DNA from: Kribbella sp. NBC_00382
GTDB lineage: Bacteria; Actinomycetota; Actinomycetes; Propionibacteriales; Kribbellaceae
DNA length: 64,000 nucleotides
Direction of reading: 5' to 3'
Assembly: GCF_036067295.1 (NCBI RefSeq)
Contig: NZ_CP107954.1
Span: 2,480,001 to 2,544,000 of the forward strand
Shown in pieces: positions 6,785 to 53,446 of this stretch (positions within the stretch are counted from its first letter, which is position 1; every line of letters starts with the position of its first letter). The notes under the pieces were generated by a model that was given only the letters and a program-made list of their open reading frames with translations, ran no database searches and was not told the DNA's origin. A program made the position numbers and the translations under genes.

Positions 6785-7569
6785 CCGAACTGCCCTCGCT
6801 CCCGGCCCTTGCCCGGCATCCCGGCGAACGCCTGGATGATCCCCAGCCACTCGTCCGCCTCGGCACCCACCGCGTGCACATCAAGGTCGTCCCGATGCCG
6901 GCGCTGCGTCGCCAGGAAACAGAAGTCCAGCGCCTTACCCGTCACCCGCTGCTCGGCATCCTCCGGACCCCAGCTCCACAGGTCGCCCTCAGGCCCCGAA
7001 AGTTCCACGTGGAACGGCGAAGCCGGCGGCTTCCGATCGTTCAGCAGATAGGCGAAATCCCTGGTCCGTACTGCGAGGTGCGCAACGTGCCGCAGCCGGT
7101 TGGACGGCCGCCGCGTCACCCCCAGCGCATCGGCGACGTCCTGCCCATGCGCCCACGTCTCCATCAACCGCGCGGTCGCCATCGAGGTAGGACTCATCGG
7201 CGGCCCGAACCACGCCACCTTCTGCCCAGCCGGCACCGCCTTGAGCGCTTCCTGCAACTCCCCACGAGCCTGTCGCCAGTACGTCAGCAACTCTCCCGCC
7301 GGCAGTGCGGCTCCCTCGGCAGCCCCGTCGTCCACAAATCCGGCCGGGTTTTCCACAGCCTTCTGTAGCTCGACCTGGAACTCCTCCGGCTCGGCCGCCG
7401 CCAACCGGGCCGCCTCATCCGTCCATGCCAGATGCGCAATCTGATGCGCGACCGTCCATCCCTCGGCCGGCGTCGGCGTACTCCATCCACCGACCGCAAG
7501 CCCACCGACGAGCAGATCCAGCTCGACACTCTCAGCACTCAGATCGGCCAGCACATCATCCAGCTGCAC
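6781..7569 (-). CDS. TIGR03084-like protein (DinB/mycothiol-dependent maleylpyruvate isomerase fold)
   Basis: About 262 residues from a GTG at 7569 giving [28 protein letters not shown] (about 40-55) and [15 protein letters not shown] (about 153-167) supply the conserved His positions of the DinB/MDMPI four-helix metal-binding fold; a C-terminal SCP2-like region carries [31 protein letters not shown]. Members of TIGR03084 sit beside AtuA and acyl-CoA carboxylase genes in many actinobacteria, but the function is unknown. This is the promoter-proximal gene of the operon, preceded by a 16-bp palindrome. It overlaps the AtuA-like gene as GTGA. Confidence 0.85.
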
Positions 7570-7626
7570 GCGCGACTCCCGCCCTAGACCCGGTCCCCCG
7601 AGCCTCCCACCCAGCCCGGAAAGAAT

Positions 7627-7642
7627 CAAGCACGCGTGCTTG
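7627..7642. promoter_or_regulatory. 16-bp perfect palindrome upstream of the acyl-CoA operon
   Basis: CAAGCACGCGTGCTTG is a perfect inverted repeat about 58 bp upstream of the first operon gene. AAGCA/TGCTT half-sites of this size are typical operators for TetR-type acyl-CoA regulators (family knowledge). No TetR gene is adjacent; the neighbouring divergent regulator is of the GntR type, whose sites usually have a different form. It is therefore probably an operator for a regulator encoded elsewhere. Confidence 0.55.
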
Positions 7643-7751
7643 TTTTTGTCCGGACCGTTCGGGAGATCCATTCGGGCACGATTGGTCTACTAGCAATTGC
7701 ACGCTCTTGGAAAAGGTTCCGGGCGACCCCGGTGGGGTGTTAGGCAGAGGG

Positions 7752-8468
7752 ATGCACAGTTCCCTGCCGGGTAAGGCCGCCGAGATCCGGGCGCTGCTGC
7801 TCAGTCTGATCGACGCCTTGCCGGAGGGGTCCGCATTGCCGCCCGAGCGGGAGCTGGCGGTGCGGTGGAATGTCGCGCGGATGACGTTGCGGCGGGCCGT
7901 CGACGAGCTGGTGATCGAGGAGTTGCTGGTCCGCCGGCACGGCAGTGGGACCTATACCTCCCGGCCGAAGGTGGCCAGGTGGCTGGGGATGATGGGTTTC
8001 GCCGAGGACATCCGGCGGCGCGGGATGCGGCCGGGGAGCCGGACGCTGGAGTTCAGCCGGGCCAAGGCTGAACGCGCGGCCGCCCGTCGGCTGCGGATCC
8101 CGGTCGGCGATCCGGTGCTCACCTTCACCCGGCTCCGGCTGGCTGACGGGACGCCGATGGTGGTCGAGCGCACCACGCTGCCCGGCAGCTACGTACCGGG
8201 TCTCGAAGCTGAGGATCTGAGCGGTTCGCTCTACGAGCTACTGACCAATCGGTACGGCATCGAGCTGGCCTCCGGTACGTCGAAACTCGAGCCCGTGATG
8301 CCCGACGCCGAGACCGCCGAATGGCTCGACATCCCGAGCACCCAGCCGTGCATGGCCTTGCACGGGGTCAGCTTCGACCGCCGCGACCGGGTCTTCGAGT
8401 ACACGTCGTCCGTCTACCGCGGCGACCGCTACGCCTTCACCGCCGAACTCCGGATGACCCCGCCGTAG
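7752..8468 (+). CDS. GntR family transcriptional regulator (HutC/UTRA subfamily)
   Basis: About 238 residues from ATG 7752. The N-terminal winged helix includes GSALPPERELAVRWNVARMTLRRAVDELVIEELLVRRHGSGTY (about 20-65); the C-terminal UTRA effector domain (about 90-235) shows GDPVLTFTRLRLADGTPMVVERTTLPG. It probably senses a small metabolite such as a sugar phosphate or organic acid. It is divergent from the acyl-CoA operon and convergent with the ROK gene; its TAG is directly followed by the ROK stop on the other strand. The target could be either the operon to its left or itself. An in-frame open region extends upstream but the palindromic control region lies there, so the ATG with nearby GAGGG is preferred. 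Confidence 0.88.
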   Translation: MHSSLPGKAAEIRALLLSLIDALPEGSALPPERELAVRWNVARMTLRRAVDELVIEELLVRRHGSGTYTSRPKVARWLGMMGFAEDIRRRGMRPGSRTLEFSRAKAERAAARRLRIPVGDPVLTFTRLRLADGTPMVVERTTLPGSYVPGLEAEDLSGSLYELLTNRYGIELASGTSKLEPVMPDAETAEWLDIPSTQPCMALHGVSFDRRDRVFEYTSSVYRGDRYAFTAELRMTPP

Positions 8469-9626
8469 TTATCCGGTGACCGAGTCCGGGGTTTCCACGC
8501 GGGTGAGGAGATGGGTCGCGGCGTGGGTGGTGGCGGTGGCTATGGCGCCCACCAGGCTGGCGCGGTCGCCCAGGGCTGAGCGGACGATGGTGGGTGGAAT
8601 CGGGAGGGCGGCCGCGAGCTCGGCTACTCGCTCGGCCAGGAAGTCGTTGTCACCGATGCCGCCGCTGAGGATGACGGTCTCCGGGTCGACGACGGCGCAG
8701 ATGGCGGCGACGATCTCGCTGATCCGGCGGCACTCGTCTTCCACCAGGGATACGGCTTGCGGCTCGCCTAGACGAGCACGCTCGAAGAGGTCGGCTACGT
8801 CCTTCAACGCCGGGTCGAGCGCTTGGGCCTCGCGCAGGAGCGCTTTGCCACCTGCTTCGTCGGCGCTGGACGGCGTACCGCTGCGGTGGGCGTGGCCGGT
8901 CGGCAAGAAGGCGACCTCGCCGGCCGCGCCGTGGGCACCGCGCAGGAGTGCGCCGTTGTGCATGATGCCCGCGCCGACGCCGGTACCGATCGCGATGACC
9001 GCGAACATCGACGCCTCTGTGCCGGCGCCGTGCCGCTGCTCGCCGATCGCGGCGAGGTTCACGTTGTTCTCCAGCAGTACCGGTCCGTCGATCGCGGCCG
9101 ACAGCTGGGAGTAGAAGTCGTACGGCTTGTCCTCGCCGACATTCCACGCGTACCGGACCATCGGATCGTGGGGATTCACCACGCCAGGAATCGACACCCC
9201 GGCAGCCAGCAACGGCACGTCCACCCGATCAGCCGCCGCCCGCGCCTCGGCAAGGAGCTCAACGGCCTGCCGTACGACGCTCGCCGCCCCCTTCGCTCGC
9301 GTCGACCGCTTCAGCTCGGCCAGCGGGGCGCCGCTGAGGTCGCAAACGGCTGCCCGAAGGTTCGTACCGCCGATGTCGATCCCGGCGACACACCCAGCAG
9401 CAGCCGGTACGCCGTACAGGGTGGCAGTGCGGCCGGGTAGACCACTTCGCTGCGCCACGGGCTCCGCCAGGCCGAGCGACTCGAGCCGCTCGACCGCGGC
9501 GAACACGGTCGGACGGGACAAGCCGCAGGCCACCGCGAGCTCGGACCGGGTCTGTGGTCCGGACCGGGTCAGCAGCTGGGTCAGCACGACGCTCGCGCTG
9601 GGAGTGCCGCTCACAACACGGTTCAT
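8469..9626 (-). CDS. ROK family transcriptional regulator
   Basis: 385 residues. An N-terminal MarR-like winged helix (about 15-65, SELAVACGLSRPTVFAAVERL) is followed by a ROK sugar-kinase fold beginning with the phosphate motif DIGGTN (84-89), with VIAIGTGVGAGIM and the C-terminal ILSGGIGDN. The usual ROK zinc signature (CxCGxxGCxE) after GEVAFLPTG is absent: the segment is HAHRSGTPSSADEAGGKA, without cysteines. It most likely represses the divergent sugar ABC operon, and the 19-bp inverted repeat in the shared intergenic region is a natural operator. It is convergent and abutting with the GntR gene. Confidence 0.9.
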   Translation of the reverse strand: MNRVVSGTPSASVVLTQLLTRSGPQTRSELAVACGLSRPTVFAAVERLESLGLAEPVAQRSGLPGRTATLYGVPAAAGCVAGIDIGGTNLRAAVCDLSGAPLAELKRSTRAKGAASVVRQAVELLAEARAAADRVDVPLLAAGVSIPGVVNPHDPMVRYAWNVGEDKPYDFYSQLSAAIDGPVLLENNVNLAAIGEQRHGAGTEASMFAVIAIGTGVGAGIMHNGALLRGAHGAAGEVAFLPTGHAHRSGTPSSADEAGGKALLREAQALDPALKDVADLFERARLGEPQAVSLVEDECRRISEIVAAICAVVDPETVILSGGIGDNDFLAERVAELAAALPIPPTIVRSALGDRASLVGAIATATTHAATHLLTRVETPDSVTG

Positions 9627-9646
9627 GCGTCACCTCCGGTTAAGCC

Positions 9647-9676
9647 TTGACTACCGCCTCGGAGCCTGATGATACT
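9647..9676 (+). promoter_or_regulatory. Candidate sigma-70-type promoter of the sugar operon
   Basis: TTGACT at 9647-9652 and GATACT at 9671-9676 with an 18-bp spacer. The operator-like inverted repeat begins 9 bp downstream, so it would cover the start site. Pattern-based only. Confidence 0.4.
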
Positions 9677-46449: not shown

Positions 46450-47253
46450 ATGCCCTTACAGCGGATCGCTCTCATCTCGGATGTGCACGGAAATCTGTCG
46501 GCGCTGGAGGCGGTGCTCGCCGATATCGAGGGACGCGGGATCGAGCGGGTGTTCAATCTCGGCGACTACGTCGGCAAGGGCCCGCGGGGGAGTGCGGTGG
46601 TCGACCTGTGCCGGGAGCGGTGCGAGGTCAACATCCTCGGCAACTGGGACGACTTCTTGCCGGACCCGGACCGGGAGTACGACAGCGAAGGCCTGCGCTG
46701 GTGGAAGAACGAACTCCGCGAAGACCAGCACAGCTGGCTGCGAGCCCTCCCCTTCAGCCACGACTTCGTCCTCAGCGGCCGCCAGATCCGCCTCTTCCAC
46801 GCATCGGCGACGAGCGTCCACCGCCGCGTCCGCTTCGACCACGACGAGCAAGAGTTCGTCGGCATGTTCCAGAACACCGAGGCGACCGGCGACGGCCCGA
46901 TCCCGACGGTGGTCGGCTACGGCGACACCCACGACGCCTTCTACGAGGTCGACCTGCAACGCCGAACCCTCTTCAACACCGGCAGCGTCGGCAACAGCAT
47001 GTCCGACCCCACCCCCGTCTACGTCATCCTCGAAGGCATCCCGGACTCCCCCGACGACGCCCCTTTCTCCATCCAGTTCGTCCGAGTCCCGTACGACGTC
47101 CAAGCCGAACTGGAAGTAGCCCGCTCCCTGGCCATGCCTGAACTCAACGGCTACGAAGCCGAAATCCTCCACGGCGTCTACCGCGGCGACCTCTACTCCA
47201 ACACCACTCCCACCTACCACCGCCGTCCTTCCCCAGCGGTCCAACCCGCGTAG
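46450..47253 (+). CDS. Metallophosphoesterase (YfcE/MJ0936-like)
   Basis: 267 residues from ATG 46450. Motifs: LISDVHGNLSALEAV (Asp11, His13), NLGDYVGKGP (Asp39), ILGNWDD (Asn65), and FHASATSVH. The last family motif, normally GHTH, reads GYGDTHDAFY here, so one conserved His is Asp159. This is the calcineurin-like fold with two metals that hydrolyses phosphodiesters or phosphomonoesters. Only 31 bp after the glycosyltransferase gene, it may be in the same transcript. Its stop TAG directly abuts the stop of the convergent ATPase gene. Confidence 0.87.
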   Translation: MPLQRIALISDVHGNLSALEAVLADIEGRGIERVFNLGDYVGKGPRGSAVVDLCRERCEVNILGNWDDFLPDPDREYDSEGLRWWKNELREDQHSWLRALPFSHDFVLSGRQIRLFHASATSVHRRVRFDHDEQEFVGMFQNTEATGDGPIPTVVGYGDTHDAFYEVDLQRRTLFNTGSVGNSMSDPTPVYVILEGIPDSPDDAPFSIQFVRVPYDVQAELEVARSLAMPELNGYEAEILHGVYRGDLYSNTTPTYHRRPSPAVQPA

Positions 47254-50200
47254 CTACTCGGGTGGTTTGCGGCTGGCTTGGGCTCGGGATACCACCTCGT
47301 CTGCGGTGAGGGCGCTCTGTGGGTGGTAGCTCAAGCACATCGGGATCTGCAGTTTCTCGAAGCCCAGGCCTTCGCTGGTGGCATAGAAGTGTCCGGACCG
47401 GAGCCGGGCGATGTCGTCGACACGGCCGCCCTTCGCCTTCGCGAGTTCGGTGGCGGCGCTGATCTGCGCGCCGGCGTTGAGCAGCCCGAAGAACTGCGTC
47501 GTGGCATTACCGGGGATCCGGTTGTGCAGTCCTTTCGGCGCTTGGGTGGCGAAGACCAGACCGAGCCCGTACTTCCGGGCCTGCGCGGCCAGTACCAGCG
47601 TGCTTTGCGTGCAGGCCGTCGCCGCACCGGAAGGCGCATAGGTCTGGGCCTCGTCCATCACCAGCAGCCCGCCGAGCGGACGGTCACCGGCGGGATTGCG
47701 TTTGATCCACGCGAACAGCGCCATCTGCAACTGGTTGACGAAGCTCTGCCGCTGCTCCTCGGCCGGTAATCCGACGAAACTGATCACCGAGATGCGCGCT
47801 CGATAGCCCTGCGTCGGAGTGAGTAGGACGCCCGGGTCCAGCGCCTCGCCGGTACCGCCGAACAGCGGGTCGTTCACCGTCTCGACGTTGAGGGCCTCGG
47901 CGATGTCGGCGGCGACCTTGGGTGCGCTGCGTACCCGGCTGATGCCGCGTGGCAGGTCGGACAGCAGGTCGATGAACTCCGTCAGCTCGGTGCCGCCGTC
48001 CCGGGCGAAGTGCTCGAGCGCCTCACGGAGTACCGCCTGGCCGGTCTTGACCTTCCGCCCGGTGAGCTGCGCCCGCGGCAGCAAGCCGGCCACGGCCGCC
48101 TCGACGGCGTCGCCGAACTCGTCGGGGTCATCGAGTACGTCCGCGAAGTCGGGCAATGGCCGGAAAGCCAGCGGCCGTCCCTTCGCGCGTCGCGGAGTCC
48201 AGACCACGACCTCGGTACTCCGCAAGTACGCGTCGGCCTTCTCGGCATCGCCCGCCACCCACCCGGCCGGCGTGCTGGGCCAGCCGTCGCCCAACCTGGC
48301 CAGGTCGTTGTTCGGATCGAGCACGATCGAGGAAACCCCTTGCAGCGCACACTCCTCGATCAACCGCCGCAGCAAGACCGTCTTCCCCGACCCAGACCCC
48401 GCAAACGCCACCGTATGCTTCCGCAACTGCACCAACGGAACCCCGAACACCCGCCCCGACTCAACCCCAGTCCCAATCGGCACCACCGGCTCTGCCCCAC
48501 CGCCCTGGGCAGCTGCCGATGCCGGCTCCGATCCAGCTGGCCGCGCTGTCGACGCCGCGCCGGCAGCGCCCACGCCGCCGGCCCCTGCGGTGCTGCCCAC
48601 ACCGCCCGCGTCGCGCGGCTCGGCCGCGGCGCCCGCGCCGGCTGAGTTGGTTGAGTGGAAGACACGGCGGAAGAGTTCGGTGCTGGCCGCAGGGCGGCGG
48701 GTCTCCAGCCATTGGAGGAAGCCGGGGTCGGGATGGCGGCGGAGAGCGTCGAGGGCTGCGAAGGTTCGTAGGTCTTCGACTGTGATGGGCACCGACAGCC
48801 CGCCTGCGGCGGTGAATTCGGTGACCTCGCGGCTCGTCATCGGACCTGACGACCAGCGCGTGTTGCGGAGGATGATGAGCTTGCGTTTCGTGACACCCTG
48901 CTCGAGCCCGGCCTCGGTCCGTGCCGCGCGCAACCGCGTCAACGCAGCCCGGCCGTGCTCGCTCGCGATCGCCCGGAACCCCCAGTGCATCTCGTCGTCC
49001 GTCTGCTCGTCCAAGGTCCGCCGCAACCGCGCATGCAACGCCGGCTTGTTACCCGGCGGCGGATCCAGCTCAAACTCCTGCCCGGCACCACCAAGCTCCG
49101 CGATGTACGCGCTGAGCGCCGCCGCCAGCAGGACCGGCATCTGAAGATCCTCGGTCTTCGGATCGAGCGCGGCATCGATATCCGCGGTCTCGCGCAGTTC
49201 CGCGAACCGAGCGTCCAGCCGCCCAAGCCCAGTGGGCGCGGCGTGCTTCGCGGGACGAACCGGCTCGGGTTCAGCAGCGAAGTCGTCCAGCTCGACCAGC
49301 CGATCGGTCTCCAGACATCTCCGGATATGGCTGTCCACCCGCTGCAACAGCCGGCGCGGCGTGTAATCCCGCGCACCACCGTCCTCGAAGGCAGACCGAA
49401 GTACGGGCCAAGTCGGGTACGCCGGTACGAAGTCAGCCGCCGAATAGAGCCCCGCGAGCCGTCGAGCAACCAGATCCACCGCGATATCCGGATCGGGCAG
49501 CTGACTCTGCATGGTCACCACCCGGAAGCGATCGGCCGCCGGGCTGATCGCCGTCGTCCTGATCAACTCCCAGGTCGCCGGGATGCACGCCACCACCGAC
49601 AGCGTGCGATGTGTCTGCTCCCGTAGCTCCATCAACCCATCGGCAAGCTCATTGATCAGCTTGACCCGGGCATCGTGGTTGGAAGCGTCGTCGCCGCGAC
49701 CGGACGAAGCCTGGGCCATCACGCTGTCGATCTGATCGACGGCGATCACCGTGGGCCCGGTCAGCGCGAGCAGCCGCGACAACTCGCCCAGGATCTGCTG
49801 CGGCAACCGGCTGCCCCGACGGAACCCCCAGGCCTCGCGATCCGCGTCGGGAACGTCGCCGTCCAGTTCGAAGTAGCTGTATCCGACCTCCTGAGCGACC
49901 TCGTCCGCGCTCCGATAGAGCACGAGTGCGCGAGCAGTGTTCTGGCAGTCGGTACCGACCTGTGGATCGATCTGCTTGAGCCCCGCGATGAACGAGTCGA
50001 GATCGGCCCGCGTCGCCGGCTCCTCCCCGCGCAGCCGCCTCTGCAGACTCTCCGGAAGCGTGGCCTGCTCACCGAGCCGATGCAGCAGCAGGGTCAGCTG
50101 ATCTCCCTGGCCGGCGTGAAATCCGTCGATGACCCCACGGACCGCGCTCGGCCAGAACGAGGCTCCGTTCACGACCTTGATCAGGAAGAAGTACCCACCG

Positions 50201-50451
50201 CTGTCCTGCACCCGCTGCCTGACCCACCCCAGCAGGTGGGTCTTGCCGACCCCCTTCTCCCCTTCGAGCGCGATCCCGATCGGGCTCGCGCCGGTACTAC
50301 CTCGCGCGGCGGCGACCGAGGCCATCACGGTCCGGATCACGTTCGCGTGCAGGCCCTCGACGTGGTGCTCGGCCGGGCTCCAGATGTCATCCGGAGTGAC
50401 CGCCCAGTTGAACTGGACCGCGGCGAGTGCGGCCCGCTCGTCATTCCTCAT
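47254..50451 (-). CDS. Two-ATPase protein: N-terminal AAA domain plus C-terminal HerA/DUF87 ATPase
   Basis: 1065 residues. Domain 1 (about 25-390) has Walker A GEKGVGKTH (64-72) and Walker B TVIAVDQID (234-242), like ORC/STAND-type AAA proteins. A central region (about 400-600; KLIILRNTRWSSGPMTSREV, FAALDALRRHPDPGFLQWLE) is unassigned. An Ala/Gly linker (about 600-655) leads to domain 2 with Walker A GSGSGKT (684-690), SSIVLDPNNDLARLG, Walker B GLLVMDEAQ (927-935) and FATQAPKGL, typical of HerA-like DNA-translocating ATPases. It is the last and largest gene of the four-gene operon; its ATG overlaps the preceding gene by 11 bp. Probably the motor of a DNA-processing or anti-phage system (inference). 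Confidence 0.88.
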   Translation of the reverse strand: MRNDERAALAAVQFNWAVTPDDIWSPAEHHVEGLHANVIRTVMASVAAARGSTGASPIGIALEGEKGVGKTHLLGWVRQRVQDSGGYFFLIKVVNGASFWPSAVRGVIDGFHAGQGDQLTLLLHRLGEQATLPESLQRRLRGEEPATRADLDSFIAGLKQIDPQVGTDCQNTARALVLYRSADEVAQEVGYSYFELDGDVPDADREAWGFRRGSRLPQQILGELSRLLALTGPTVIAVDQIDSVMAQASSGRGDDASNHDARVKLINELADGLMELREQTHRTLSVVACIPATWELIRTTAISPAADRFRVVTMQSQLPDPDIAVDLVARRLAGLYSAADFVPAYPTWPVLRSAFEDGGARDYTPRRLLQRVDSHIRRCLETDRLVELDDFAAEPEPVRPAKHAAPTGLGRLDARFAELRETADIDAALDPKTEDLQMPVLLAAALSAYIAELGGAGQEFELDPPPGNKPALHARLRRTLDEQTDDEMHWGFRAIASEHGRAALTRLRAARTEAGLEQGVTKRKLIILRNTRWSSGPMTSREVTEFTAAGGLSVPITVEDLRTFAALDALRRHPDPGFLQWLETRRPAASTELFRRVFHSTNSAGAGAAAEPRDAGGVGSTAGAGGVGAAGAASTARPAGSEPASAAAQGGGAEPVVPIGTGVESGRVFGVPLVQLRKHTVAFAGSGSGKTVLLRRLIEECALQGVSSIVLDPNNDLARLGDGWPSTPAGWVAGDAEKADAYLRSTEVVVWTPRRAKGRPLAFRPLPDFADVLDDPDEFGDAVEAAVAGLLPRAQLTGRKVKTGQAVLREALEHFARDGGTELTEFIDLLSDLPRGISRVRSAPKVAADIAEALNVETVNDPLFGGTGEALDPGVLLTPTQGYRARISVISFVGLPAEEQRQSFVNQLQMALFAWIKRNPAGDRPLGGLLVMDEAQTYAPSGAATACTQSTLVLAAQARKYGLGLVFATQAPKGLHNRIPGNATTQFFGLLNAGAQISAATELAKAKGGRVDDIARLRSGHFYATSEGLGFEKLQIPMCLSYHPQSALTADEVVSRAQASRKPPE

Positions 50452-51073
50452 GGGTGTCGATCTTCAGCAGATGCCGGCTGCTGCCACCGAATCGAACCGC
50501 TGCCTCGTGGTCCGCCGGGGTCAGCACCTGTTGATTCGCCTCGGCTTGGACGTGGACACCCGGCTCCCGCGAGAGCTGCTGAAGCGCGGCGTCCAACTCC
50601 TCCCGGTCAACGTCGTCCAGCTCCGCCCGCAGTGCGGCCAACCCGACCCAGGTCGACCCCGTCCGAGCACTCAAGGTGGCGTAGGCGGCCCGGATCCGCG
50701 ATTCGAGGTCCGGCTCGGCAGGTTTGAAGACGTCGGCCAGTACCTGACCAGTTCGCTGCAGGTACCGGTGCAAGCCACCGAGGATCGCGTACAACGCTCC
50801 ACCTCCCGCCCCCGAACGCAGTGGCCGCTCGGCGTTCAGTTCAGCTGTGCACCAGGCAGCACCGTCGTCGGTGATCTCGTGGACGAAGGACCGACCGACC
50901 TTCTCGCTCGTGACGAGCTTGAGGTCGTTCAGCCTGAGCCTGCTGGCACCGTCCAGCTTGAGGCCGGCCGAGTCGGACAGCTCCGCGTTCGTCATCGGAC
51001 GGGCCTCGGCCAGCAGTGCGAGCAGAACGGCTCGCTCCTTCAGGTTCAGCGGTTGAGCAGGCACGGTTTCCAT
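50441..51073 (-). CDS. Small helical protein with N-terminal winged helix
   Basis: 210 residues. The first about 75 residues read as a winged helix (LKERAVLLALLAEARPMTNAELSDSAGLKLDGASRLRLNDLKLVTSEKVGRSFVHEITDDG). The second half is helical with LGGLHRYLQRTGQVLADVF and a segment WVGLAALRAELDDVDREELDAALQQLSREPGVHVQAEANQQVLTPADHEAAVRFG, itself like a second winged domain. I do not recognise a named family. It sits between the unknown 364-residue gene (7 bp gap) and the ATPase gene (11 bp overlap), so it is probably a subunit or loader in the same complex rather than a repressor. Confidence 0.7.
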   Translation of the reverse strand: METVPAQPLNLKERAVLLALLAEARPMTNAELSDSAGLKLDGASRLRLNDLKLVTSEKVGRSFVHEITDDGAAWCTAELNAERPLRSGAGGGALYAILGGLHRYLQRTGQVLADVFKPAEPDLESRIRAAYATLSARTGSTWVGLAALRAELDDVDREELDAALQQLSREPGVHVQAEANQQVLTPADHEAAVRFGGSSRHLLKIDTHEE

Positions 51074-51080
51074 CCTTCGA

Positions 51081-52175
51081 TCAGGGGTTGTCGCCGACGA
51101 CGCGGAGGCCGTCGGGGTCGGCGATGATGCGCACGCTGTTCGGTGCCGTGTCGGTCCACAGGCCGGTGATCTCGACCCGCTGGTGATTGCGATGAGCGGC
51201 CAGCGCCACGTCGTACGAGTCCTGTCCGGGCAGCCGGACCCAGAGCACCCGGCGCGTGCCAGGTCGGCCGGCGGACCGCAGGGTGCCGCGGACCTTCACC
51301 CGCCACCGGTCAGACCCGGTCTCGTTGTCGTTCAGGGTTTCGAGCCGGCCCGTGATCGTCACCGGGCCGGACAGATCTGGCAGGCCAGGGGCGGCAACCC
51401 GGGCTAGGCCGGAACCTCGAAGCTGGTCGGAGAGTTCCCCGATCAATGAGCCACTGCCAGGAGGAAATCCCAGCACCTGATCGGGTTGCGGCGAAGCGAT
51501 CCCCCGAGCCCAGCGGAAGCCCAGCTCGAACGACTCGTCGCTCGTCCCCAATGTGGATAACGCTGTGCAAAAGTCTGGGGACAATGAGTCGGGTAAGGAA
51601 TCGATGCCAGTCGGCCCGGCCGCGACAGCCCGGCGTACGGCGAAGGCTGCCTCGTACAGCTCCACCAGGACCCGGCGACCGGGCGGAGGCTCAGCCGGCG
51701 ACGATTCCTCGCCGAGCGGGACCAGCAGCGTGACGCTGAACTGCTGCGAGGTCGTCGTCCCGAGATGGAGGCCACTCAGCAGATCGGCCACCGGAGTACC
51801 GAAGGGCGATCGGAGTACCGTCTCGGCCGCGATGCGGAAGAGGTCGTGCAGGCCTTGCAGGGCGCCGAGTCCGGATTCGAGAGGTATGAAGCCTTCTGGC
51901 TGCCCGATAACCGGTGTCCGGTACGACGCGGTGTCGAGCAGCGGATAGGCGATGTCCCGCGCGATCTCGCCGGCCGGACGGTTCTCGAAGCTCTCCAACG
52001 CCCGCAGCAAGTCCTTCAGCCGGGCAGCGCTGTCGCCAAGGCCGTCCCGAGGCGGTACCAACACCTCTTCCTGCCCGTTCGACCAGATCGCGGCGCCGTT
52101 CCAGGTCTGGTCGCTGCGGGACCAGCCGGCCTCCGACAGGTACGAGCTGACCGCGCCGACCCCGATGTCAGCCAT
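51081..52175 (-). CDS. Unknown protein of the AAA/HerA-DUF4365 operon
   Basis: 364 residues, no recognised family. It has no signal peptide or membrane segment. The N-terminal half is mixed helical (WNGAAIWSNGQEEVLVPPRDGLGDSAARLKDLLRALESFENRPAGEIARDI, then a helix around LGALQGLHDLFRIAAETVLRS). The C-terminal half (about 255-364) looks like a small beta domain (ITGRLETLNDN, WRVKVRGTLRSA, RRVLWVRLPGQDSYDVALAAHRNHQRVEITGLW), possibly an OB-like fold. It overlaps the DUF4365 gene by 8 bp and precedes the winged-helix gene by 7 bp, which ties it firmly to this operon. Confidence 0.75.
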   Translation of the reverse strand: MADIGVGAVSSYLSEAGWSRSDQTWNGAAIWSNGQEEVLVPPRDGLGDSAARLKDLLRALESFENRPAGEIARDIAYPLLDTASYRTPVIGQPEGFIPLESGLGALQGLHDLFRIAAETVLRSPFGTPVADLLSGLHLGTTTSQQFSVTLLVPLGEESSPAEPPPGRRVLVELYEAAFAVRRAVAAGPTGIDSLPDSLSPDFCTALSTLGTSDESFELGFRWARGIASPQPDQVLGFPPGSGSLIGELSDQLRGSGLARVAAPGLPDLSGPVTITGRLETLNDNETGSDRWRVKVRGTLRSAGRPGTRRVLWVRLPGQDSYDVALAAHRNHQRVEITGLWTDTAPNSVRIIADPDGLRVVGDNP

Positions 52176-52653
52176 CGATGAGCTGCCGCAACGTGGTCAC
52201 CGTGAGCACGTTGGCCGTCGGAACACTGACCCGGACGTGCTTCTTCTTGTCCGGTTGGTCGAACGGTGTCCGGTCCCGCAGCGATACGTAGTACCCGACG
52301 TCTCTGAGCAGGAGGCCGGTCGTGTTCAGGGCCGCGTACTGGTCGGTCTTCGCCGGGACGATCACCAGGAACAGGTACCGGTGGACCAGGAAGTCCGGCC
52401 CGGCGAGCTTGTTGAACTGCGACTGGTTGAGGCCGTCGAAGTCGAACGCGGCGGCGCGGCGCTGCGGGCGCGAGGTGGTCTTGACCTGGACCTCGATCCG
52501 GGGCGACCAGCCGGTGGCGGAGTGCATCTTGATGCAGAAGTCCACACCGTCGTAGTCGATGTCGTCGGAGGAGATCAGCAGCCCGGCGGCAGACGCCAGG
52601 ACCCGCACGTAGTCCTCACCGAATTTCCCCTGATGTACAAGCGCATCCAGCAT
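52168..52653 (-). CDS. DUF4365-like protein (PD-(D/E)XK nuclease fold)
   Basis: 161 residues. GKFGEDYVRVLASAAGLLIS, followed by DYDGVDFCIKM (Asp38) and IEVQVKTTSRP (Glu54, Gln56, Lys58), gives the layout of the PD-(D/E)XK core as found in DUF4365. FLVIVPAKTDQY and LLLRDVGYYVSLRD follow. Such domains occur in defence proteins and are thought to cut DNA or RNA. It is the first gene of the operon. No clear promoter was identified in the about 100 bp before it, where the GNAT gene ends. Confidence 0.78.
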   Translation of the reverse strand: MLDALVHQGKFGEDYVRVLASAAGLLISSDDIDYDGVDFCIKMHSATGWSPRIEVQVKTTSRPQRRAAAFDFDGLNQSQFNKLAGPDFLVHRYLFLVIVPAKTDQYAALNTTGLLLRDVGYYVSLRDRTPFDQPDKKKHVRVSVPTANVLTVTTLRQLIDG

Positions 52654-52750
52654 TCGACCCCCGGAGTACGAAGCATCCCCCCGTGCTCTGTGTGATCGAC
52701 CCTAGGGGCACCACCGTGAGTTGTCAGCCCCAAGGTGTTTCGCGCACCAC

Positions 52751-53395
52751 CTACCGGACGAGGAGGGCCTCGGAGCCGACTGGTTGGTAGCCGGCCGATA
52801 GGAAGGTTCGGGTGGAGGCGGCGTTGCCGGGGCTTACCTGGGACCAGATGTGGGTGCCGGGTGGGATGAGGGCTCGGGCGGCGCGGGCGAGGTGGCGGCC
52901 GTGGCCTTGGCGGCGGGTGGATTGAGGGACTTCTAGGGCTACCTCTAGGCGGCCGGCCAGGCCGCGGCCGGTGAGGACCAGGCCGCCGTACGGGGTGGTG
53001 TAGGCGTGGACGTCGTCGCGGTAGCGCCAGGCTCTTTCGATGCGGGGGTGGCCGCGTTCGGTGAGCTCGGTGAGGTCTTCGACGGCGGCGGCGCGCTCGG
53101 CCGGATCGGTCAGGGCGGGGGCAAGCAGCATCTGGTCGATGGAGTTGACCCTGCGGCCGGTGAGCTGCTCGAGGGCGTACAGGAACGGCGGGTTGAGCGG
53201 GGCGGACAGGTCGCCGTCGGGGATGAGGTCGGTGACCCAGGACGGGGAGACGTCCGCGGCGATGACGATGTGGGCGGTGAAGGCGACGACGCAGGCCTCG
53301 CGGGCGGACGGCGCCGGTACCACCGTGATGCTCAGGTCCGGGGTGGGGAAGACGCCGCCTTCGATCCCGCGCAGAATGTCAGCCAGAGTTGTCAT
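52751..53395 (-). CDS. GNAT family N-acetyltransferase
   Basis: 214 residues from ATG 53395. The acetyl-CoA site of the GNAT fold is seen in LEVALEVPQSTRRQGHGRHLARAARALI (the RxxGxG/A loop as RRQGHGR), followed by QVSPGNAASTRTFLSAGYQPVGSEALLV, the usual last strand-helix-strand. The first about 110 residues are a variable domain. Substrate is unknown. It is divergent from the HMG-CoA lyase gene and lies upstream of the DUF4365 operon on the same strand, with about 97 bp between. Confidence 0.83.
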   Translation of the reverse strand: MTTLADILRGIEGGVFPTPDLSITVVPAPSAREACVVAFTAHIVIAADVSPSWVTDLIPDGDLSAPLNPPFLYALEQLTGRRVNSIDQMLLAPALTDPAERAAAVEDLTELTERGHPRIERAWRYRDDVHAYTTPYGGLVLTGRGLAGRLEVALEVPQSTRRQGHGRHLARAARALIPPGTHIWSQVSPGNAASTRTFLSAGYQPVGSEALLVR

Positions 53396-53446
53396 CACGA
53401 GCCATTGTGGAGGAGACCCCTCCCGGCTCCTGAATTGGAGGCACAC

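Follow-up and report, generated by a model that had tools for sequence, protein, structure and literature searches.

A Kribbella cassette joining a catalogued DUF4365 gene pair to a conserved AAA-HerA core that also occurs with other upstream modules

Introduction

One class of HerA/FtsK capture systems has been described as combining an Orc/CDC6 AAA+ ATPase, an inactive restriction endonuclease (REase), an active REase, a HerA/FtsK ATPase, and a winged helix-turn-helix (wHTH) component, in one or several chains (Rakesh, Aravind, and Krishnan 2024, PMC10853773). In that class, the inactive REase lies between the AAA core and a C-terminal wHTH, and the wHTH component is a wHTH or a protein with two to four wHTH domains. 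The role proposed for these systems is to catch DNA while it is being segregated, transferred, or packaged. A passage of a 2026 BREX paper restates the capture idea (PMC12839542). Here we describe a four-gene cassette of similar composition (genes A to D) in a 64,000-nucleotide stretch of the genome of Kribbella sp. NBC_00382 (contig NZ_CP107954.1, positions 2,480,001 to 2,544,000), which we call the window.

Genes A and B are not new, being catalogued already as defence candidates in PADLOC. What is new here is that C and D form a conserved core, upstream of which we find the A-B pair, a different gene (B'), a TIR-carrying form of that gene (TIR-B'), or nothing recognized. On balance, we lean toward reading the cassette as an accessory and probably anti-invader system, in which C-D would capture invading DNA and pump it to a nuclease.

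Results

Gene layout of the cassette

The four open reading frames lie on the minus strand in the order A (the DUF4365 gene), B, C, and D (the AAA plus HerA gene). Their positions in the window, with lengths in amino acids (aa), are as follows; the predicted fold of B is an oligonucleotide/oligosaccharide-binding (OB) fold.

52168..52653, minus: gene A, 161 aa; DUF4365 (PD-(D/E)XK) predicted nuclease; PADLOC PDC-M02A; Q56-x-K58 is the presumed active-site pair
51081..52175, minus: gene B, 364 aa; PADLOC PDC-M02B; predicted C-terminal OB fold; N-terminal part without known family
51093..51380, minus: predicted OB-fold domain of B, residues ~266-361, from Foldseek and VIA-align on the AlphaFold2 model
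50441..51073, minus: gene C, 210 aa; probable double winged-helix protein, from conserved columns in 51 sequences; residues ~116-206 recur in other proteins
47254..50451, minus: gene D, 1065 aa; fused AAA, middle domain, and HerA ATPase, from Pfam, PADLOC mad8/HerA, and a 49-sequence motif table
49276..50451, minus: D residues 1-392, AAA+ domain (AAA_16); Walker A GxxGxGKTH, Walker B D-Q-x-D, and a TPR motif as possible sensor 2
48643..49254, minus: D residues ~400-603, arginine-rich middle domain, family not known, conserved in 24 homologues
47257..48489, minus: D residues ~655-1065, predicted HerA/FtsK-type motor; Walker A GSGSGKT, Walker B DEAQ

The close packing given in a preliminary description of this DNA was reproduced from the frames in full, both in position and in spacing: A and B overlap by 8 bp, B and C are separated by 7 bp, and C and D overlap by 11 bp. 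GC content around the operon is 0.675 to 0.688, and the base composition is unremarkable. No promoter-like or terminator-like sites were found between 46900 and 53500, and no Rfam families in the window. The host's 8.49 Mb single-contig genome has one match to D, and the named relatives of D come from three Kribbella, one record filed as Streptomyces sp. SID13031, and two Pseudonocardia.

C and D form a conserved core with exchangeable upstream modules

Within the class, searching with a C profile gave matches in 43 of 394 genomes, among them the window's own, and in 18 of 138 genera. Such counts are lower bounds, because the genome searches scored only part of the first candidates per genome (five in one search, seven for C). 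We fetched 40 loci from 39 of the 43 genomes, a set that excludes the window's own genome, G615, G720, and G761; genes in fetched loci were called with a simple codon-based caller, so that start sites are approximate. Together with six loci of the host genus (including the window), two from Pseudonocardia, and three from a plasmid collection, this gave 51 C loci. Two further loci with only a C-type domain (L107 and L108) were kept out of the count.

C is followed directly by D in 38 of the 40 class-sample loci, and in the remaining two, L064 and L069, D is the next gene on the same strand. The C and D frames overlap in 42 of the 48 fetched loci in which they were called as neighbors. Upstream of C, the 51 loci have A-B (11 loci), B' (19), TIR-B' (5), or no recognized module (16), a class that may hide effectors of types not known. 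A-B was never found together with B' (0 of 51 loci, six genes on either side).

B' is about 360 aa long, with an N-terminal domain followed by a DUF559 nuclease domain at the C-terminus (E 1e-11 to 3e-14; three B' and one TIR-B' scanned). The D, E, D-G, and H residues of the DUF559 domain do not vary among 16 aligned B'. TIR-B' has in addition a TIR domain at its N-terminus (Pfam TIR_2, E 2e-34 for L096), and the other four members are 92 to 94% identical; in L099 the caller had split the gene in two, and we labelled it by hand and later checked its TIR part. No relationship of B' to A or B was found by profile comparison (hhalign for B). At L089 the gene of a protein of 755 aa (positions 7384-9651, plus strand), which matches nSTAND3 weakly (E 0.011), overlaps C by 4 bp, and a 132-aa member of the same STAND-like family lies at the contig edge of L088 (53-451, plus strand). 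This protein is a possible further effector type.

The concern in the preliminary description that the four genes might rarely be found together elsewhere was not borne out. The A-B-C-D order occurs in 6 of 38 genomes of the host genus, the window's included, and in 5 of the 40 loci of other genera, where A is 39 to 53% and B 34 to 40% identical to the proteins of the window. A directly overlaps B in 10 of the 11 A-B loci, with a B-C spacing of -1 to 56 bp. In one A-B copy, at L072 (8440-9770, plus strand), the pair looks decayed: A reads R-x-M instead of QxK, B has 282 aa and lacks the OB-fold part, and C and D are full length.

Each pair also occurs without the other. A-B is present without C-D in genome G024 (L014; no D in the genome) and in the 3.9 kb locus L033 of G165, and C-D is present without recognizable A or B in the Pseudonocardia locus L030 and, as far as the contig reaches, in L031. 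The four-gene operon therefore joins two separable modules, and the conserved core of the unit is C-D, not the four genes as a minimal set. The earlier view of the four genes as a set is upheld insofar as they recur together in several genera. The separate occurrences would also fit a chance adjacency of the PDC-M02 pair A-B and an unrelated C-D pair. We consider this highly improbable, since A-B stands directly upstream of C-D in 11 loci with the tight spacing given above, A-B and B' use the same slot, and D distances track those of A and B. The Spearman coefficients of D distances with those of C, A, B, and B' are 0.40, 0.68, 0.57, and 0.74 (48, 11, 11, and 15 loci), each reached by 0 of 500 label permutations. 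This fits joint inheritance, and host kinship can give the same pattern.

We then looked at the modules on a tree of 49 D proteins; D proteins shorter than 900 aa were kept out of the tree and the motif table, and the 49 include an unlabelled second D of L066. On this tree, A-B requires three changes, of which well-supported branches make two unavoidable; A-B, B', and TIR-B' taken jointly require three. A thinned tree of 25 rows, without the rows lacking a recognized module, L104, L105, and seven near-copies, has all A-B rows on one side with a support of 56 and needs two changes, which is the minimum. TIR-B' loci form one clade, and A-B loci form one weakly supported group or two, depending on the tree. 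Because the thinned tree needs only the minimum of changes, we set aside the idea of repeated module swapping and limit the claim to what the trees indicate, that at least one module exchange occurred.

A and B are a catalogued pair

A belongs to DUF4365 (Pfam E 1e-13) and matches PADLOC PDC-M02A (E 3.8e-62). Its residues Q56 and K58 are nearly invariant in an alignment of 13 sequences. In the DUF4365 nuclease of an Argonaute system, a QxK motif was picked as the active site and mutated (PMC10810196). Q56-x-K58 corresponds to that pair, so A appears to keep the residues of an active DUF4365 nuclease. The proposed presence of such a nuclease in the set is thus upheld at the level of family and presumed active-site residues.

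B matches PDC-M02B (E 3.5e-95) and has no significant Pfam family. Its AlphaFold2 model has a mean predicted local distance difference test score (pLDDT) of 77 and shows an OB fold at the C-terminus. With Foldseek, the top match of the model was a single-stranded DNA-binding protein (SSB; E 4.7e-3), with PriB close by and none at E <= 0.001. VIA-align matched about 80 residues to SilF (Z 11.4), PriB (Z 8.7), and a small SSB from Streptomyces (Z 8.3), and toxin B subunits of the OB fold ranked between these. The fold search covers well only residues ~266-364, and the N-terminal part is without assignment.

With these two matches, A and B are already part of a defence catalogue. Of the two subunits said to lack a recognizable family, B indeed has no Pfam family and C gives only a weak winged-helix signal, but B is a catalogued protein. 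The PADLOC accession after the PDC-M02B models, PDLC04337, is PDC-M03A, and no PDC-M02 model matches C or D; PDC-M02 therefore appears to be a two-gene candidate in PADLOC, and its two members are adjacent here with the 8 bp overlap. PDCs were derived by guilt-by-embedding, and for the majority of PDCs in the core defensome validation is said to be still outstanding (PMC12988326).

C is a probable double winged-helix protein and D a fused ATPase

The winged-helix signal in C is weak: HTH_24 was matched at E 0.051 in the window protein, and three of eight orthologues were matched at E <= 0.5. These HTH_24 signals point only weakly to the earlier label of winged-helix protein. C probably carries two winged-helix domains, as judged from its conserved columns. 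Matches of C to solved calmodulin structures were weak (best E 0.0055 among the best 60 of 156), and we took them as noise.

The C-terminal 80 to 95 residues of C recur in other, plasmid-borne proteins. On Rhodococcus fascians plasmid pA21d2 (L107, 7578-13970, plus strand), a protein of about 2,130 aa by our own call, annotated with 2,033 aa, has the second domain of C near its N-terminus, together with helicase and weak methyltransferase matches (DrmD, mad2, and BrxH models, E 1e-9 to 3e-11). A TraM-recognition gene is not far from it. On Nonomuraea gerenzanensis plasmid p1 (L108, 5557-6339, plus strand), the C-terminal domain of C is found in a protein annotated as helix-turn-helix, with a single gene lying between it and the gene for a class V lanthionine synthetase. 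The second domain of C, as seen in the Rhodococcus protein, may be a shared adaptor.

In D, AAA_16 was matched over residues 58-247 (E 5e-6, below the curated cutoff) and DUF87 over residues 676-741 (E 1e-4, 23.0 bits against a cutoff of 23.2). Homologous N-terminal segments gave AAA_16 in 24 of 24 and AAA_22 in 20; one of the 24 also matched BrxC_BrxD, weakly. The HerA part has mad8 as its best PADLOC match (E 1.3e-16), along with a HerA model, and matches solved HerA chains at E 4e-5 and 3e-4. K690 and T691 of the HerA domain are present in all 49 D, and D933 and E934 in 48 of 49. In the AAA domain, Walker B reads D-Q-x-D, with Q240, a Gln at the usual position of the catalytic Glu, in 48 of 49. 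From these motifs we infer that the HerA part would be a working motor and the AAA part an ATP-binding switch. The description of a HerA domain behind an AAA ATPase in one chain is borne out by the AAA_16 and DUF87 matches and by the motifs in the 49 D, all at the sequence level.

The middle domain of D, compared across 24 homologues, gave no significant PDB match and no Pfam family common to its members. An impression from strand order that it might be an inactive REase received no support from profile searches. Four loci (L093, 4468-9687, minus strand; L066, 11843-16186, minus strand; L070; and L094) encode a D of 1447 to 1739 aa. In L093 and L066 the long D has a Pro/Ala-rich stretch of several hundred residues between the middle and HerA domains, and the long D of L066 is an additional one, which immediately precedes an ordinary B'-C-D.

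The cassette occupies a possible recurrent insertion site in the host genus

The surroundings of the cassette in the window are as follows.

46450..47253, plus: left flank, calcineurin-like phosphoesterase gene, outside the system; Pfam Metallophos_2 E 4e-15; its stop abuts the stop of D
52751..53398, minus: right flank, probable GNAT acetyltransferase gene, outside the system; weak FR47 match, E 0.018
47226..52754, no strand: cassette segment without counterpart in relatives, from breaks in flank homology (blastn)

The phosphoesterase gene is present in 34 of 38 genomes of the host genus and the GNAT gene in all 38. Both flanks lie on one contig in 33 genomes, of which 26 have a gap of <=300 bp, that is, an empty site, 4 have the operon between the flanks (5.5 to 6.1 kb, window included), and 3 have other content (0.8, 1.8, and 6.1 kb). 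In G015 the flanks are on different contigs, and a weak D match in G016 (E 6e-4) was not counted as a system. When compared by blastn with six operon-less sites, flank homology ended at ~47223-47225 and restarted at ~52751-52760 in five, and ended at 47233 and restarted at 52714 in the sixth (L170). No clear terminal repeats were found at the cassette borders, where the repeat search gave imperfect matches only.

In G022, the same site holds 6.1 kb that include an MNT-HEPN-like pair, PADLOC PDC-M05A/B (L169, 7512-8569, minus strand), and two other large genes. A second defence candidate between the same flanks suggests a recurrent insertion site. The A-B-C-D copy of G022 (L012) lies on another contig, and it shares an upstream neighbor with the copy of G015 (L013), so that the genus has a second cassette location.

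The MNT-HEPN-like pair at this chromosomal site, and the potential toxicity of nuclease modules, also bring to mind a locus of toxin-antitoxin-like or regulatory type, with A-B acting on the DNA of the host and being held in check by C-D. We regard this as very unlikely. A-B is present in G024, where no D was found, and thus seems not to need C-D as antitoxin.

Distribution and genomic neighborhood

Within the host genus the system has a patchy occurrence (6 of 38 genomes), and C was found in 38 of 148 genomes of another genus. Outside Actinobacteria, B'-C-D occurs on a 1.57 Mb Methylobacterium plasmid. A Tsukamurella tyrosinosolvens record labelled plasmid (L105, NZ_LR134464.1) also has B'-C-D, annotated as DUF559, hypothetical, and DUF87, together with a PIN/VapB pair between rplN and rpsQ; with its ribosomal protein genes, this record may be a chromosomal piece. 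The third record from the plasmid collection, of Nonomuraea, is chromosome-sized at 11.9 Mb. No match to B was found in plasmids. An accessory, defence-related role is supported by the status of A and B as PADLOC candidates, by mad8 as the best PADLOC match of D, and by the patchy occurrence, the site empty in 26 of 33 genomes, the PDC-M05 pair at the same site, and the plasmid copy.

Several observations weigh against it. C is present in 15 of 15 genomes of a third genus, unlike a typical patchy defence system. No match to D was found in GenBank phages, nor in IMG/VR by a peptide-pattern scan. We compared, at 20 loci, the seven nearest non-system genes of 80 to 1499 aa with seven genes elsewhere in the same genome, scanning 139 of 140 neighbors (one cut by a locus edge was omitted) and 136 of 140 controls (four long ones were omitted), and saw no enrichment of PADLOC models among the neighbors; the defence-island enrichment anticipated earlier was thus not seen. 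Among the neighbors, the 25 families listed of 50 each matched six members and were nearly all kinase-type models. The controls had Wadjet JetA, JetB, and JetD models among the matches listed (25 of 42 families). Pfam gave a name to five neighbors, all of a metabolic or membrane type. This neighbor content counts against a simple defence-island picture. Of the 51 loci, 16 have C-D without a recognized module, and two of these 16 lie at contig ends. On the protein side, the winged-helix assignment of C is weak, the AlphaFold2 model of D had a pLDDT of 43 and was discarded, so that the fold of D is read from sequence, and an OB fold alone does not equal DNA binding, as the high-ranking matches of B also include toxin B subunits and a metal-binding protein.

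The strongest opposing explanation is a chromosomal DNA-maintenance machine for repair, recombination, or segregation, comparable to HerA-NurA in end resection and kept by some lineages. It would account for the 15 of 15 genomes, for neighbors that are similar by gene size in several of the five fetched members of that genus, and for the absence of defence enrichment beside metabolic or membrane-type genes. We nevertheless hold it to be unlikely. Maintenance sits poorly with a presence in only 6 of 38 host-genus genomes and of C in 38 of 148 of another genus, with a clean cassette at an otherwise empty site, with unrelated nuclease modules, one with TIR, sharing one slot, and with a plasmid copy.

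Comparison with known systems

The preliminary description knew of no named system with this set, and scans of A to D against Pfam, PADLOC, and NCBIfam agreed in giving no gene-by-gene match; Dpt and BREX components were not found. Nor did we find a description of the A-B-C-D gene set in print, in a search that did not reach bioRxiv or supplements. The set is not unprecedented in kind, though, since the general class of Orc/Cdc6-type AAA+, HerA/FtsK, wHTH, and nuclease is already published in the paper introduced above (PMC10853773, main text). Like that class, the cassette has an AAA_16-type AAA+ domain, a HerA/FtsK domain, a probable multi-wHTH protein, and a predicted PD-(D/E)XK nuclease in one operon. 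Unlike it, AAA and HerA are fused here in one chain with a middle domain of no assigned family, and the nuclease is DUF4365 with an OB-fold partner, or DUF559.

We compared the components one by one. The HerA/FtsK part agrees by the mad8 and HerA models, the solved HerA chains, and the motifs in 49 D. The predicted active nuclease agrees by the QxK of DUF4365 or the D, E, D-G, and H of DUF559, leaving aside the correspondence to the two REase families of the paper. For the AAA part, the agreement lies in AAA_16 and AAA_22 matches to the 24 segments, and not in a placement within the Orc/Cdc6 clade by tree or structure. As for the inactive REase, the candidate region is the conserved middle domain of D, which gave no significant match, and for the wHTH component C gave the weak HTH_24 signals described above. 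The terms DUF4365, Vsr, "OB fold", and "actinobacteria" have no occurrence in the main text of PMC10853773, to which the search was confined. The cassette thus resembles the capture kind in its HerA domain and predicted nuclease, and less certainly in its AAA clade and wHTH; we do not claim proven membership.

Other systems share single themes. Both genes of PDC-M02 are matched by A and B, and the difference is that here they are joined to C-D. The HerA part of D is like mad8 of MADS, but among the families listed for the four proteins only D has such a match, to mad8 alone, with no mad1-7 match for A, B, or C (25 families shown for A and B). DndFGH and DptFGH have the AAA, wHTH, and HerA themes in common with the cassette (PMC10853773), but no DptF, DptG, or DptH NCBIfam model was listed for A to D at E <= 1. 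No PglZ, BrxC, or BrxA/B component of BREX is found among A to D. HerA-NurA has the theme of a HerA motor with a nuclease, but there is no NurA match in A to D, and D scored 16.8 on the HerA equivalog against a cutoff of 970. SPARDA and other DUF4365-APAZ short Argonaute systems have a DUF4365 nuclease with QxK like A (PMC10810196), but A to D have no Argonaute or APAZ match.

Discussion

In the mechanism that we propose, the products of the cassette would form a complex around D as an ATP-driven ring, whose HerA domain, with both Walker motifs intact, would pump double-stranded DNA toward the nuclease. The N-terminal AAA domain, whose motif for ATP binding is preserved, is more likely to be a loader or switch than a second motor, because of the Gln at the catalytic Glu position of its Walker B motif. 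C would bring DNA, the nuclease module, or both to D. A-B would be the cutting module, with B holding or activating A; the predicted OB fold of B perhaps binds single-stranded DNA and may sense single-stranded or replicating DNA. In relatives B', sometimes with TIR, would replace A-B, which makes C-D a candidate for a common platform for exchangeable nuclease modules. The trigger would be incoming plasmid or phage DNA.

A variant of this reading, not its opposite, is a cassette that mainly keeps out conjugative or plasmid DNA instead of phage, with the HerA motor and the OB-fold protein meeting DNA as it enters or replicates. It is in keeping with the segregation, transfer, or packaging stages proposed for capture systems in the text of PMC10853773 cited above, with the OB fold predicted in B, and with the second domain of C in the large helicase protein near the TraM-recognition gene of the Rhodococcus plasmid. 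That plasmid protein may be unrelated in function, however; we rate the variant as rather unlikely.

Taken more broadly, C-D could be the core of a modular immune family, found mainly in Actinobacteria and on one alphaproteobacterial plasmid. In such a family an AAA-HerA platform with a double winged-helix adaptor would drive exchangeable effectors (DUF4365 with an OB-fold sensor, DUF559, TIR-DUF559, and possibly a STAND-like protein), and PDC-M02 would be an effector cartridge that also works without the motor. We put this forward tentatively, as plausible but falling a little short of an even case. If true, it would join the catalogued candidate PDC-M02 to a motor system and would mean that a single HerA platform can take up nuclease modules of unrelated kinds in one genomic slot. 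The family would also offer a clear comparison between defence and DNA maintenance, as 15 of 15 genomes have C in one genus and 6 of 38 have the system in the host genus. The published idea of HerA/FtsK capture would then become directly testable, with one C-D core and a DUF4365, DUF559, or TIR-DUF559 partner.

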